From: Ischnura elegans
Taxonomy: Eukaryota > Arthropoda > Insecta > Odonata > Coenagrionidae
Assembly: GCF_921293095.1 (NCBI RefSeq)
Contig: NC_060248.1
Span: 14,588,744 to 14,652,743 of the forward strand
Reading direction: 5' to 3'
DNA length: 64,000 nucleotides
Below, one piece after another: positions 711-60,795 of this stretch (positions are counted from its first letter, which is position 1; each line of letters opens with the position of its first letter). A program made the position numbers and the translations under genes. The notes under the pieces were generated by a model, which was given only the letters and a program-made list of their open reading frames with translations, had not been told where the DNA came from and ran no database searches.

Positions 711-1364
711 CAAGGTTCCCACTCAAACTAAATCACAAAATTCACGGTTTTTTTCCAGGTTTTCACGGTTTAAATGTCGTCAAATTCACGGTCTGTAGAT
801 AAGGCATTTTGGGCATCAATATTGATCACGAAACAATCATCGGCCGCGCGTTAAATAAAAATTTAACAAACGCAACAGACACCGTGAATGCAAACGGAGC
901 AATGAAATGGCTATCTCACATGACGTCACCCTTTGCTAGCAAAATTCAGGTCCGGCTAAAGGTTGTGAGCAGGAAAATGGAGGGAGCAGGGCGGCATGGA
1001 AGTGAAGAAGTGCCTGATTTTTTGCCAGGGTTAATGAAAATTTTACTGGTTATTGGTGTTCCAATCACAGCCTCAATCAACAGCCCAGGTCAATGAGTCG
1101 TCACAGCATACGGGCCAATAATTGCGCTTCGAATACACGTGTGTAGATAAATGCGTGGACAGTATCTGCACGCGACTCCGCCTTGAAACATGATCGAAAC
1201 ATCGACTTTTCTTTTGATCTGTCAATCTTAATTCTAAGGTCAAGTTTGAGGGAATTTTAAGGTTTTATGATGAAATCCACTGCTTTTTCCAGGTTTTTTC
1301 ATGGCACACGAAATTCGCTGCTTATTCACGGTTTTAAGGTCTTCACGGTTGAGTGGGAACCCTG
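711..1364. mobile_element. hAT-like non-autonomous element, nested
   Basis: The ends are CAAGGTTCCCACTCAA and, on the other strand, CAGGGTTCCCACTCAACCG, a terminus resembling hAT elements. Both ends also carry TTCACGGTTTT-like subterminal motifs. The flanks share AAATG (706-710 and 1365-1369), and removing the element restores a sequence colinear with the repeat at 366-454. A 5-bp duplication is short for hAT, so the class call is tentative. Confidence 0.5.
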
Positions 1365-2050
1365 AAATGAATCTCGCTCAGAAATTCAACGTTTTACATT
1401 ATCAGTACAAGAAGATCAAAGTTATGCAGTTTTGTACAGCATTGTGAGCAAGGGATGTGATGATCAAGATTAAAGTGGGTGAGCATAAACTTGAGCAGGT
1501 AGAGCGACTATTTTGGCAGCACTTAAGAGGAAAATGGATATAGCAGTAAGGGCATCACAAAGAGAAATGAATTAGCAAAAGAGGTCTTCATGAATAAGAA
1601 AGAGCTAATGGGAGGACCATTATTGAAGAGTTTAAAGATAAGGCAGTGAAAAGTCTGATCTACAGTGCAGTGCTTAGCGGTACAGAAATATGAACACTAC
1701 AGAATAAAAGGACAAGGAAGGACTGAAGGCCTTCGAGACATAGGTCTGGAAAAGAATGGAGAAGGTGAGGTGAACGGAGAGATGGAGGAGCGATGAAGTG
1801 CTAATGATGGTTGGTGAGGAGAGATGGCTTCTAGATGAGATACTAAGGAGACAGAAGGTATGGATGGAGTGAATACTGAGTGGAGAGGGGATGTTGAAAG
1901 CAATGTTAGAGGGTAGAATGTTGAGTGAGCAAGGGAGGGGGTGGAGGAGAATAGCAATTTTAGACAGAATGAAAGAGGGTGGGCCTTAGACAGACCAGGG
2001 TGATCAGCAAAATTCTCCATATTCACCTACCTTGATTGGTAGAATGATGC

Positions 2051-3816
2051 AATAATTGTTAAATAATTGCGCGTAAATGCTTTCAAAGGCATTGAAATAT
2101 TCATCCAGGTGTTCCATTGTATTTTTCTTCCATGTAGGTATGTCAATTTTAGGGAAGAATATTAAAAAATTATTTACTTGATTGCACCCTCTGAAAATGA
2201 GAGCAATCAAAATTTTTTGTTGATAGAAAAATTTTAGGCTGGTTCACGGGCCAAAATATTTCTGCCTCTGGAACCTGATAACAAAAAGTGCTCGATACAT
2301 CAAAAATTGAATCCTCAAAATTATCGTGTCCTGAGAAATGAAATGGGTGATCTACAAAATGGGACATGGGCACCAAGAATAAATTCAACAATCACTGGAA
2401 ATCAGCAGACACAGACGACCAAACATTCCAGCCACAGGGTCAATTCCCCTGAGACCTGTCAAAGATGGCATTGCCTTCAAAACGGCATTCCTATACAAAC
2501 GTATGGACATTAAGTGACCTGACATCACCAAATAACAAGATGAAGATTGTGATAAAAATGAAGTTCCTAACTTCAACTGCTCTTCCGAGAGGGAAGAGGT
2601 GTTAATATATGGATTCCATTAAAAAGCCTGGACAATAACCCATAAATGATGGTGATGCCTTTATCTAAACGACAGAGAACAGGTCAGACGAAAAGTAACA
2701 ATGCATAAGTACCTATTTTCCCCAATGAAGAGAATACATCTTATGACATTCATTTAAAAGATTTATATTCTTTTTCAGGTTTGGACCAAAGCTATAGAAT
2801 ACTGCAAACAATGAACATACAGAAGGCAATGGAAAATATCTTACCTAATGCAATTCCTTTTTAGATTCCAAAACACCTGCGCTCATGACGAGAGGAAAGC
2901 ACTGTACCCATGTTGCTACACAATCCTTATTTTTAAAAATCGTTTTCCTCACTTCACGAAAATTACGTTCCAATGCAACACAAAATAACAATTCTCCGCG
3001 GTGTTACAACCAATTTACCACCATTGACAGATAATAAACACCCGTAACACACTGAACTTCGTCGAAACTTAGGCGTTGCGCTTATGTTTTTTCAGGAATA
3101 CCAAAATTCCAAAAATTTGATATTCTTGAGTTGAATAAATTTTGGAATATAATCTTGAATTCAGTGGTAAAAAAACTATTTATTGCCGACGATCCATTAA
3201 TTTGTAATCGGCTACCTTGAATATGACTGAAGATATTATCCGAGTACGCTCTACCTGTTGCACTTAATTTCATATGTTGGTTAACTCGAAAGGGAAATGA
3301 ACCTAGAACATTATTCTAAATATATTGTTGCATAATTTACCATTTGAGGGGCGATTAATTTCATCATTTCAAAATTCTTGAGATTGCAACCTTTTTAAAT
3401 AACGTGTTCATTCATAGCGTTTAATTATGTATACGACATTTATGAGTTCATTGTTGATTTTGAGTTATGATAAAATAAACGCCAGCCTGAATTGCAGCTT
3501 TTATATAATAAATACAATATTTATGTGTCCTTTATTGCTTTTGGGTTATTTGGTATGAGAGTTCTGTTTAGAACCTGATTCCTGTTAATCATGAAAAGCG
3601 TATTTGAGGGAACTACTTTAGCTATATGTAGAGTAATTTTGAGTCCAATTATATGTATATGGAGTAAATAACTCTAACTTGCTTACATCACATCCTGTGA
3701 GCTTCCATCACATCCTTTTATTGTGAGCCCATTATCTCTCCTATGCTTCCTTGGATCCGAATTCAATGTTTCCACAATGCAAGCCCTTCATTGATAAGGT
3801 GGACCCTATTGAAAAT
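2051..3816. other. No recognisable gene
   Basis: AT-rich sequence with only short ORFs on both strands, none resembling a known family and none with convincing splice sites. Confidence 0.4.
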
Positions 3817-4445: not shown

Positions 4446-5110
4446 ATTGCTTTTATATGTTAATCATTCACAATGTCTTTGTGATAGCAGTTTAATAAAA
4501 TAAGTCGTGTGCTTCTAACCAAAATAAGGCATTGACCTAATTTGGTAAGTATTAAAAAAACTGGCATTCCTAAAATTATGTTACCTTAACACGTTCCCTG
4601 CCACGCGCCGCCATAGGGCGTCTCACATAACTTCAAATTCGAGTTAGTGAGACGCCATATGGCGTCTCGCATTGCTGCTGGACGCAACTAGTGAGACGCC
4701 AATGGGCGTCAAAGTAGCGTTTTCGTTGAATCATCAAGCGATGTATAGAACTTGAAATTTAAGCTAAATTTCCTTATGCACTGACGAGACAATGTTATCT
4801 TCTGTGAAGGGAGAGTATTGGTAACACATTTTAGCTTGAATTTCATTTTTTTTTCGTCTTCGGTTTCTCATGTTTTTTTCGAGAGTGCCATTTTTCAATG
4901 GCTATATCATTCTATGTTTCAAGTGGAAGCTTGAGGTAATATATCTCCACACAATGTTTCAAATTACATTTGCAGAGTTTTTTTCTTTCTTTTCCTTCTC
5001 TCAGTTGTCGCTTATACCTAACCGAGTGAGGAGCGTATCATTATACCAAATTTATTCTCTGTTTAAGTAAATGAAAGGTCGTAGCACTTTTCCACAAGAA
5101 TTTTTAATGC

Positions 5111-5149
5111 GTACAACGCGTTTCGGCTCACTGAGCCATCATCAGGTAC
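5111..5149 (-). ncRNA. Hammerhead ribozyme core of a Penelope-like tail
   Basis: Read on the minus strand: GTAC, CTGATGA, a stem II hairpin (GGCTC-AGT-GAGCC), GAAA, a self-complementary ACGCGT stem III, a U at the cleavage position, then GTAC. The two GTAC segments pair as stem I. This matches the minimal type I hammerhead known from Penelope-like retroelements, where the very short stem III is thought to work as a dimer. No PLE coding sequence is recognised beside it. Activity is inferred, not shown. Confidence 0.75.
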
Positions 5150-5602
5150 AAGACGCTTGAACACATGTGAAGATCCCTTTTATACCCTTGAGAGAGGAGA
5201 GTATTGGAGAAGGAGAGGATTTGACATCTTTGAGGATGGGGGTGGGTGGGAACGGGTGTACAGAGTATAGACAATGGGGAAAGATACAACTACGGGATGT
5301 GGAGAACGCACGTTGGAATTTTGCTTTGCACCCAAGCCTGAATCTGTTGAATTTATTCTCTGTGTCTGTGCCTTCGATACGGAAGTGATAACCAGTCTAG
5401 TGAATATATCATGTGTACTCCGTCACGCATTATTGGGGGAAAGAAACGACCACCGACCTTGAAGGATTTTCTGAAGGAGACACCGCTAATTCAGGGTGTC
5501 TAAGGAGTCGTATGAATCCTCAGAGTCAGGTAATCTTTCTTCTTCTAATACAGGTATGATTCCTTATTCCATTTTTTTATTCACATTCTAATAACTCCTG
5601 CT

Positions 5603-39059: not shown

Positions 39060-39160
39060 TATATGAAGCCGTCGCCAGAACATCCTGATTTAACCAGCTT
39101 GGAGGACGATGGACGAGTATCTCATCGAAACTTCGGCAGATATGGAGAGCCAAACTCAAT
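39060..39160 (+). mobile_element. Degenerate Penelope-like tail
   Basis: GGACGATGGACGAGTATCTC and ATCGAAACTTCGGCAGATAT match the stem II to stem I region of the PLE tails at 40403-40649 (GACGATGGACGAC, ATCGAAACGTCGGCAGAGAT). The CTGATGA core is replaced by CTGATTT, so ribozyme function is not expected. Confidence 0.55.
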
Positions 39161-39965: not shown

Positions 39966-40020
39966 TGGTTCAACTTAGGTAACGGAGCGAATCCAAGATT
40001 GAGCACGTCCTCAATAGATT
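39966..40020 (+). repeat. 55-bp direct repeat, unit 1
   Basis: TGGTTCAACTTAGGTAACGG through CTCAATAGATT. An almost identical unit (one difference: CACGTCC versus CACATCC) is at 40817-40871, 851 bp away. Confidence 0.85.
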
Positions 40021-40448
40021 CGCACTATCTTCGTGGACACTATTTGCACATGTAGTTCAAACAACGTTTCCGTAGGCGATATACTTTTCATTATCAGAGA
40101 TGGAGAGAAAACGATTAAAAGTATCTCAATTAGCGGTAACGGTTACATTTAAGATATTTTTACCCTGCAATCGTTAAATTTGAAAAAAAAACTTTAACTA
40201 TTGATTGCAATTGATTCATTGCTTTCTGAAAGTAATCGTTACTTTCCTATTATGACTGCGTCGATTGGCGTGTGTCAAGAACTTCTTGTGAACGGACGTA
40301 TTCCTACGCGTGTAACTCCGCCGAATAATGAGTTAAACTTGCCTTTTAAGGAAACATACAATAGATTCTCCTGCATGAGAAAAGCAAACTGTAGCTACCT
40401 CTGTTGAAGTTATTTCGGGTTTCCCACCGGATGAGGTTCTCCATCTCT

Positions 40449-40489
40449 GCCGACGTTTCGATGGTCGTATCGTCCATCGTCATCAGGGC
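40449..40489 (-). ncRNA. Hammerhead core, left arm
   Basis: On the minus strand: GCC, CTGATGA, stem II GATGG/CCATC with an intervening GACGATACGA-type loop, GAAA, self-complementary ACGT, C at the cleavage position, then GGC pairing with the leading GCC. All core nucleotides of a type I hammerhead are present. Confidence 0.75.
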
Positions 40490-40528
40490 TTTATCAAGCC
40501 TATTTTTCAAGGATTCCTACTTTATCAA

Positions 40529-40569
40529 GCCCTGATGACGATGGACGACACGACCATCGAAACGTCGGC
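40529..40569 (+). ncRNA. Hammerhead core, right arm
   Basis: GCC, CTGATGA (40532-40538), stem II GATGG/CCATC, GAAA (40559-40562), CGTC with cleavage expected after 40566, then GGC. Same design as the left arm in inverted orientation; the loop differs by one base (GACGACACGA versus GACGATACGA). Confidence 0.78.
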
Positions 40570-40816
40570 AGAGATGGAGAACCTCATCCGGTGGGAAACC
40601 CGAAATAACTTCAACATCATCATACGCCGGGAAAACCTCAGATCTTTCTTGTAGCTACCTCTCATTTCGAAGCCAGCTTTCAAAAGGCTTTAAGAAGATA
40701 AAATGTAACTGTACTGAGTTACTTTTATAAATTGTAACTTAGCCCAATTTCTAATTTTGGATTCTCTATCCATCTCTGTTTACGATAATCGATGCCTACT
40801 TCGTTCAACGTTGGAC

Positions 40817-40871
40817 TGGTTCAACTTAGGTAACGGAGCGAATCCAAGATTGAGCACATCCTCAATAGATT
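40817..40871 (+). repeat. 55-bp direct repeat, unit 2
   Basis: Second copy of the unit at 39966-40020, with one visible difference. The Penelope fold-back (40403-40649) lies between the two units. Confidence 0.85.
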
Positions 40872-44009: not shown

Positions 44010-44083
44010 ATCCTGGAAGGCTCAGTCGGTAGTGAATCAGTCTTTTAATCTGAGGGTCCAGGGTTCAAGTCCCTGTTTGTTCA
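44010..44083 (+). pseudogene. tRNA-Lys(UUU)-like pseudogene or SINE head
   Basis: GGCTCAGTCGGTAG, CTTTTAATCTGAGGG and CCAGGGTTCAAGTCCCTG match animal tRNA-Lys(UUU), with the anticodon at 44044-44046. The acceptor stem no longer pairs, the D stem is broken (GCTC/GTGA) and the anticodon stem has a T-T mismatch. It is decayed, or the tRNA-derived head of a SINE whose body is not recognisable. Confidence 0.7.
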
Positions 44084-44881: not shown

Positions 44882-44953
44882 GACTCCGTAGCGCAACGGT
44901 AGCGCGTCTGACTCCAGATCAGAAGGTTGCGTCTTCTAATCACGTCGGGGTCA
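44882..44953 (+). tRNA. tRNA-Trp (anticodon CCA), possibly inactive
   Basis: 72 nt matching eukaryotic tRNA-Trp: acceptor GACTCCG pairs with CGGGGTC (one G-U), D arm GTAGCGCAACGGTAGCGC, anticodon loop CTCCAGA, discriminator A. A TTTTTT terminator follows at 44960-44965. The T arm reads GCGTC-TTCTAAT-CACGT: the normally invariant G53-C61 pair is C-C and the purine at 57 is T. Both lie in the internal promoter B box, so transcription and folding may be impaired. The tRNA-derived SINE begins only about 15 bp downstream. Confidence 0.85.
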
Positions 44954-59985: not shown

Positions 59986-60477
59986 TCACCAGCGGCTCCT
60001 CTCCTTCCCGAGACTTTTGGTAATGTTCTAAATTTTGGCTATTTTAGACGCACAAATTACTTTATGTACATTCATTGAATTGATTTGGAAACCGGGATTT
60101 CAAAGGGAAATAAACTTTGGGTTAAAACTTCAAATACTTTGTGATTGTTCGCTTCCCGACACCAAGGGCAAGAACCCGCACCCTTACAGAATGAGGAAGT
60201 CTCCAGAAGAGTTGGAGAAAGGAGAAGGTCAATGAATAGCCAAAGAAAAAGGAGAGCAAATATGTTAGGACATACTCTGAAACATAATAGCCTCCTGGCA
60301 AGAGTAATTGAGGGACGATAGAAAGAAGGAGCACAAGAGGGTTTCATGCATCAATAAGATAATGAGAAATACATATGAACACAGCATCATATAAACTCGA
60401 TTGCTTCAGGCTTTACTTTGTGAAAATCCATTGTAAACAATAAAAAGTTATGTTACTTTTTCAAACGATTTATTCAA

Positions 60478-60516
60478 GACGACCGGTTTCGTCGCAGAGG
60501 CGACATCATCAGGTAC
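60478..60516 (-). ncRNA. Hammerhead core, left arm
   Basis: On the minus strand: GTAC, CTGATGA, stem II GTCGC/GCGAC around CTCT, GAAA, self-complementary ACCGGT, C at the cleavage site (GUC), then GTC. Stem I pairs for only two bases before a mismatch, as is common in this class. Confidence 0.72.
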
Positions 60517-60630
60517 AGAATTCGTTATTTTTACAGTTATTTTGTTGTTGTTTATCTGGTTGCTATTACGCGTTGGTAGGGGAGGGTTGCGATAAACAGC
60601 AACAACATAACTGTAAAAATAACGATTTCT

Positions 60631-60669
60631 GTACCTGATGATGTCGCCTCAGCGACGAAACCGGTCGTC
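60631..60669 (+). ncRNA. Hammerhead core, right arm
   Basis: GTAC, CTGATGA (60635-60641), stem II GTCGC-CTCA-GCGAC, GAAA (60657-60660), CCGGTC with the canonical GUC cleavage triplet, then GTCT. Same as the left arm apart from one loop base. Confidence 0.75.
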
Positions 60670-60795
60670 TTGAATGAATCGTGTGAAAAAGTAGCATAAC
60701 TTTTTATTGTTTACAGCATCATATAGCTGAACCGGATGGGGGAGAATAGGGAAGAATGGCGAGCTGTTACAGACCAGCCCTATGGCCGCTAACTG

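Follow-up and report, generated by a model that had tools for sequence, protein, structure and literature searches.

One tailed and one tail-less end in short fold-back insertions of a Penelope-like element family

The window analyzed here, a stretch of 64,000 nucleotides from Ischnura elegans, contains a short fold-back whose two arms both carry a hammerhead-like core, and the question raised by this locus is whether such a structure is a mobile unit in its own right or a product left by the activity of a Penelope-like element (PLE). As the initial annotation had claimed, the fold-back (40403–40649) is 247 bp long and lies between perfect target-site duplications (TSDs) of 13 bp (100% identity). 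Its inverted arms (40402–40498 and 40520–40616, 97 nt each, 21 nt apart) are 97% complementary. The presence of its own TSD also bears out the view that the fold-back itself was inserted in one event. The description of the unit as being made only of two inverted PLE tails needs to be amended: the arms are indeed PLE-type end pieces, but the right arm has 33 extra nucleotides, and the centre is junction filler. A 12-nt direct repeat, CTTTATCAAGCC, is present at 40489 and 40520. The coordinates of all the features are given in Table 1.

The fold-back is bracketed by a 55-nt direct repeat (39966–40020 and 40817–40871, 98% identical, 851-bp spacing), whose two copies are perhaps the ends of an older element that received it. 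A relic that is 76% identical to the fold-back arm, with a decayed core, lies at 39089–39151. Two tRNA matches above the Rfam gathering score were also found in the window, one at 44882–44953 (+) and the other, weak and with an incomplete acceptor stem, at 44016–44083 (+).

Table 1. Features of the 247-bp fold-back and of a second fold-back in the same window
Feature	Position	Strand	Basis or remark
Left target-site duplication, 13 bp, TGTAGCTACCTCT	40390..40402	.	Direct repeat
Left arm, PLE 5′ mRNA segment copied in antisense; ends on the outside at site B, without tail	40403..40491	-	
Hammerhead-like core, left arm (CTGATGA, C, GATGG/CCATC, GAA, ACGT, C)	40452..40486	-	Motif search requiring pairing
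Junction filler, including part of the 12-nt direct repeat	40492..40525	.	
Right arm, segment matching the left arm, sense; starts at the probable transcription start (CAAGCC)	40526..40616	+	
Hammerhead-like core, right arm; predicted cleavage after 40566	40532..40566	+	Motif search requiring pairing
Presumed PLE ORF, first 38 codons; site B at +82, site A at +115	40535..40649	+	
33-nt tail, right arm only; outer end is site A	40617..40649	+	
Right target-site duplication, 13 bp, TGTAGCTACCTCT	40650..40662	.	Direct repeat
Second fold-back, fourth PLE-like family	60394..60715	.	Arms 60432–60556/60591–60715

The two cores, CTGATGA...GAAACGTC, at 40532 (+) and 40486 (−), face outward. In each, CTGATGA is followed by one extra base and then by stem II (5 bp), GAA, stem III (ACGT, without a loop), and C; stem I has 3 bp. 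The ATG of the ORF is located inside the CTGATGA of the motif, at the promoter/ORF junction. The claim that each arm has a full hammerhead core stands only in part: the conserved letters CUGANGA, GAAA, and NUH are present on both arms, but an extra C separates CTGATGA from stem II. A base at this place is present in 32 of the 32 distinct cores found. When no extra base was allowed, the core search gave zero matches anywhere, and it was redone with 0 or 1 extra base allowed; with pairing demanded, the mean was 0.0 per block-shuffled window (40 shuffles). The initial annotation had named rejection of both cores by a covariance model as a result that would refute it, and the Rfam hammerhead covariance models indeed matched neither core, at the gathering threshold or at E ≤ 10. 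Matches to Rfam microRNA families, which fall on the palindrome and below the gathering score, were rejected. The core letters are kept in 91 of the 116 arms that span the core, and stems II and III vary in sequence among the PLE-like cores and families of the genome yet remain paired, as the filter itself demands. Folded alone, the right arm has a lowest-energy structure that retains stem II and a GCC/GGC pairing but also pairs core bases, which is not the hammerhead fold, and the energy of this structure is equalled by 28 of 200 shuffles. The fold-back folded whole as RNA forms one long hairpin (−185 kcal/mol), and a transcript of the unit would therefore bury the hammerhead-like core. At 5115–5145 (−) lies a hammerhead-like core from a different family (CTGATGA T GGCTC(AGT)GAGCC GAA ACGCGT T, stem I of 5 bp), with no inverted partner within 4800–5500.

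The fold-back belongs to an abundant PLE family, known here from its end pieces and a 37-residue ORF start, on which Pfam gave no match. Its PLE traits are an ATG within the hammerhead-like motif, the 33-nt tail at one end, and a short, variable TSD. In the genome carrying the window (1.72 Gb), arm positions 48–80 have 1,566 matches and positions 14–46 still have 1,198 (both at ≤3 mismatches of 33), so that most arms pass through the predicted hammerhead cleavage site, and most templates were probably uncut there. The shortfall between the two counts may reflect cleavage, truncation, or loop variants. The sample of inner ends described below was selected on arm positions 36–71 and is, for that reason, a poor test of template cleavage by the hammerhead. 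One in vitro study likewise reports that insertion was unaffected in PLE ribozyme mutants (PMC11167929).

A 273-bp query returned 1,524 first-look candidates; the 40 loci among them that were scored cover the unit completely or almost completely. In the 39 loci besides the window's, the outer ends are fixed, the flanks are different, and most have their own TSD; because this set was picked by whole-unit similarity, it is no guide to how typical the fold-back form is. By contrast, a 36-nt arm pattern (arm 36–71; 1,242 matches at ≤2 mismatches of 36, reversed control 0) is blind to arm ends and partner arms, and the sample was drawn with it irrespective of fold-back structure. This pattern sample consists of 54 distinct insertions, the window's own (L099) included, taken from the first 30 exact matches listed (24 distinct insertions) and from another 30 places on the list; about 20 more were left out, and about 9 that were already in the similarity-chosen set were not recounted. 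Being made of exact matches, it leans to less decayed copies. Eleven of the 54 insertions (L082, L094, L114, L118, L119, L121, L124, L125, L129, L133, and L137) are outside the count of paired ends because the second arm is absent or beyond the fetched stretch. Among these, L114, L121, L133, and L137 look single-armed, with matching flanks (6 nt) in L121 only.

All 43 two-armed insertions of the pattern sample with readable outer ends combine one end with a tail of ~33 nt (end A, arm ~123–130) and one end without a tail (end B, arm ~89–104); A/A or B/B fold-backs numbered 0 of 43. The outer ends were set by hand, and for L091 (B end at 89), L101, L111, L115, L131, and L135 this involved either joining BLAST pieces or a judgement. 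Inverted PLE ends, the tail, and extension of both strands are already known, while the strict one-A-one-B rule was not encountered in the literature searched (listings and parts of PMC11167929, PMC3846280, PMC7229834, PMC12910113, and PMC5718144).

Other copies with TSDs of their own, a point on which the initial annotation depended, were found: a TSD score of ≥7 was reached by 33 of the 43 insertions and by none in 200 flank reshuffles, and a score of ≥6 by 35 of the 43, as against 0.08% of reshuffled flanks. The 10 insertions without a TSD at score ≥7 count against the explanation that we prefer. The median TSD was 12 bp in the 31 insertions with a score of ≥8. In the 69 insertions that reach a score of ≥6 in a target set of 82, the TSDs are 9–18 bp long, most commonly 12 bp, and the target motif is symmetric (AAAN-TSD-NTTT). 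With end B placed left, A accounts for 55–61% at the three positions just 5′ of the TSD, and T for 52–62% at the three positions just 3′ of it. Such symmetric A-rich and T-rich flanks fit equal nicking of both strands.

The centres are non-homologous between aligned copies. The sole matching pair, L040 and L044, represents a single locus that has been duplicated (97% over 858 bp), which both the target set above and the 51-copy arm comparison below can contain. Fillers of 15–80 nt show a match of at least 9 nt to the arm or the promoter in 13 of 27 cases, versus 2% of shuffles. The inner ends also vary. In the pattern sample, which here comprises 51 arm pairs, including the window's unit and a few pairs that are old relics or fragments, 40 of 102 inner ends fall at arm 7–10, as do 61 of the 80 in the similarity-chosen set, which includes the window's unit as well, and 99 of 180 overall. 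The 62 of 102 that fall elsewhere weigh against the preferred explanation, and 8 of the 102 reach the end of the promoter reference stretch or go beyond it. Two junction types recur among 90 arm pairs, (7,14) 12 times and (20,35) five times, both at short palindromes; that of (20,35) is hammerhead stem II.

The common arm stop, at CAAGCC, is a probable transcription start, as suggested by its TATA spacing: at five junctions, which belong to 4 of 9 longer loci, TATATAAG begins 29 nt upstream of the arm 7–10 stop. The exact TATATAAG box had no match in the other five loci. The upstream GAAGA-CAAGCC junction has 164 matches only (≤3 mismatches). Between the arms of L109 and L115, promoter-type sequence is found upstream of one arm, and a different sequence of ~315 bp, common to both loci at 91%, upstream of the other.

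The two arms of a copy differ by 4.2%, versus 6.7% between copies (51 copies), and the lowest mean in 2000 arm-pair permutations was 5.8%. At arm position 87, the same non-majority letter is present in both arms of 25 of the 51 copies, and 6 copies depart from the majority in a single arm. The sister arm is the nearest, or co-nearest, in just 16 of the 51 copies, and this result too counts against the preferred explanation; each arm has few differences. Together, the source variants shared within a copy, the non-homologous centres, and the variable inner ends make each fold-back look formed anew, with both arms possibly copied from a single RNA template.

The pairing of ends was also seen in other PLE families. 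A search of the genome for GIY-YIG domains gave at least 149 matches (150 scored of 2,199 candidates), and 30 loci, chosen by domain score, were read. A GIY-YIG-bearing sister family, with RVT_1 and GIY-YIG in L068, has an end structure like that of the fold-back family, with one tail in 12 of 12 resolvable fold-backs and a TSD score of ≥6 in 10 of the 12. In this family the two-armed L064 has unresolved ends, and the pairs L065/L066 and L070/L071 each represent a single insertion. A third PLE family showed A/B pairing in six of six cases, four of them with a TSD score of ≥6; further loci of these two families showed one end only. L070 contains a 2.1-kb palindrome (1059–3184, 99.9%) of the GIY-YIG family, with the tail on a single side. 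The second fold-back of the window has a 38-nt tail on the left only (A/B pairing 1/1) and a 10-bp TSD, GCATCATATA, at 60384–60393 and 60716–60725.

We consider it likely that each insertion is made de novo, with both nicked target strands priming reverse transcription (RT) of a short 5′ segment of the PLE mRNA and the cDNA ends being joined. The PLE would nick the two target strands at positions ~12 bp from each other, and RT of the 5′ end of its mRNA would be primed from either 3′ end, one strand starting at an internal site A (~+115 of the ORF), giving rise to the tail, and the other at site B (~+82 of the ORF). Because these start sites would be close to the mRNA 5′ end, just ~90–125 nt would be copied per arm. 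Many cDNAs would reach the mRNA 5′ end, just upstream of the hammerhead-like motif, and the 3′ ends of the two cDNAs, which have almost the same sequence and contain many short palindromes, would be joined by microhomology and templated filler, leaving a fold-back between TSDs. The mini fold-backs are thus best read as short products that PLE activity leaves behind rather than as units that replicate.

The initial annotation proposed that the tail-to-tail unit may be a recurrent mobile form, and recurrent it is, as the 40 scored loci span the unit wholly or nearly so, with fixed outer ends, different flanks, and, mostly, their own TSD. Nevertheless, it is very improbable that the fold-back propagates itself as a non-autonomous unit, each copy being made whole from an earlier fold-back: the centres are not common to the copies, the inner ends vary, with two junction types that recur, and the 40 supporting loci had been picked by whole-unit similarity. 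A random rearrangement, in which an old single PLE end was duplicated in inverted orientation, would account for the inverted structure and nothing more, whereas the TSDs lie outside both arms and the A/B structure recurs in independent loci and families; we regard its probability as negligible and take it as refuted by the TSD sample.

The main rival of two-strand priming is that a single strand primes at A, and that the 3′ end of the resulting cDNA folds on a palindrome, such as stem II, copies itself, and halts at B. The recurrence of junctions at the stem II and TCATCA/TGATGA palindromes is in line with such folding, and self-priming has been proposed for PLE inverted repeats (PMC3846280). 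A fixed block at B, provided by bound protein or a hybrid 33 nt short of the start, would be required, however. Moreover, B-ended single-arm insertions seem to exist, L121 having matching 6-nt flanks, and in vitro the Poseidon protein PAc has two start sites for RT and extends both strands (PMC11167929). For these reasons, we find self-copying of one cDNA unlikely and favor priming by both strands. Independent starts on the two strands would give A/A and B/B fold-backs as well, and the strict pairing would point to one RNA and a two-subunit complex.

In LINE-1 twin priming, both target strands prime on the element RNA and an inversion results, with the inverted and direct parts adjacent and non-overlapping. 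The process proposed here would be alike in the priming by both strands and in the resulting inversion, but unlike it in that both arms copy one and the same segment.

The closest biochemical system is described in PMC11167929, which reports that the purified PLE protein PAc (Poseidon, Anolis) cleaves and extends both strands from two internal RNA start sites. The most common RT start is 111–118 nt into the ORF, and the tail spans the interval that separates the sites. By analogy, ends A and B would be RT start sites. The family studied here resembles PAc/Poseidon in an ORF that begins at the hammerhead, in its two apparent RT start sites, in a 30–40-bp tail, and in what seems to be cutting and extension of both strands. 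In vitro, however, the start sites of the PAc top and bottom strands are alike, whereas each two-armed insertion here has one A and one B, and that study does not itself predict strict A/B pairing.

Similarities were also found to the Penelope elements of Adineta vaga, such as Pen2a_Av, which have an inverted pseudo-LTR, a short TSD (8–10 bp in the cases described), palindromes at junctions, and an optional 31-bp tail at one inverted pseudo-LTR (PMC3846280). Few elements are described there, and self-priming on an antisense template is proposed; here, in contrast, the arm matches exceed 1,500, most of the loci read hold short pieces, and every two-armed case scored has one tail. Animal retrozymes, according to PMC7229834, likewise carry type I hammerhead motifs in non-autonomous retroelements, with TSDs when present, but the fold-backs studied here have inverted arms from a PLE-like end instead of tandem direct hammerhead repeats.

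More tentatively, PLE integration in this genome might be an obligate two-subunit, one-RNA reaction in which, at every insertion, one target strand is primed at A and the other at B of the same RNA. The single-tail fold-back would then be its normal product, and the palindromes at the cDNA 3′ ends, including stem II, would serve to join the cDNAs; we see this as a plausible extension, somewhat short of an even prospect. How PLEs make inverted ends and tails is poorly understood, and a large natural set of minimal products, which keeps both ends, the junction, and the target, is like a record of the reaction in vivo. What this set suggests is priming of both strands, each from its own one of the two RNA start sites, on templates that were mostly uncut within the hammerhead.
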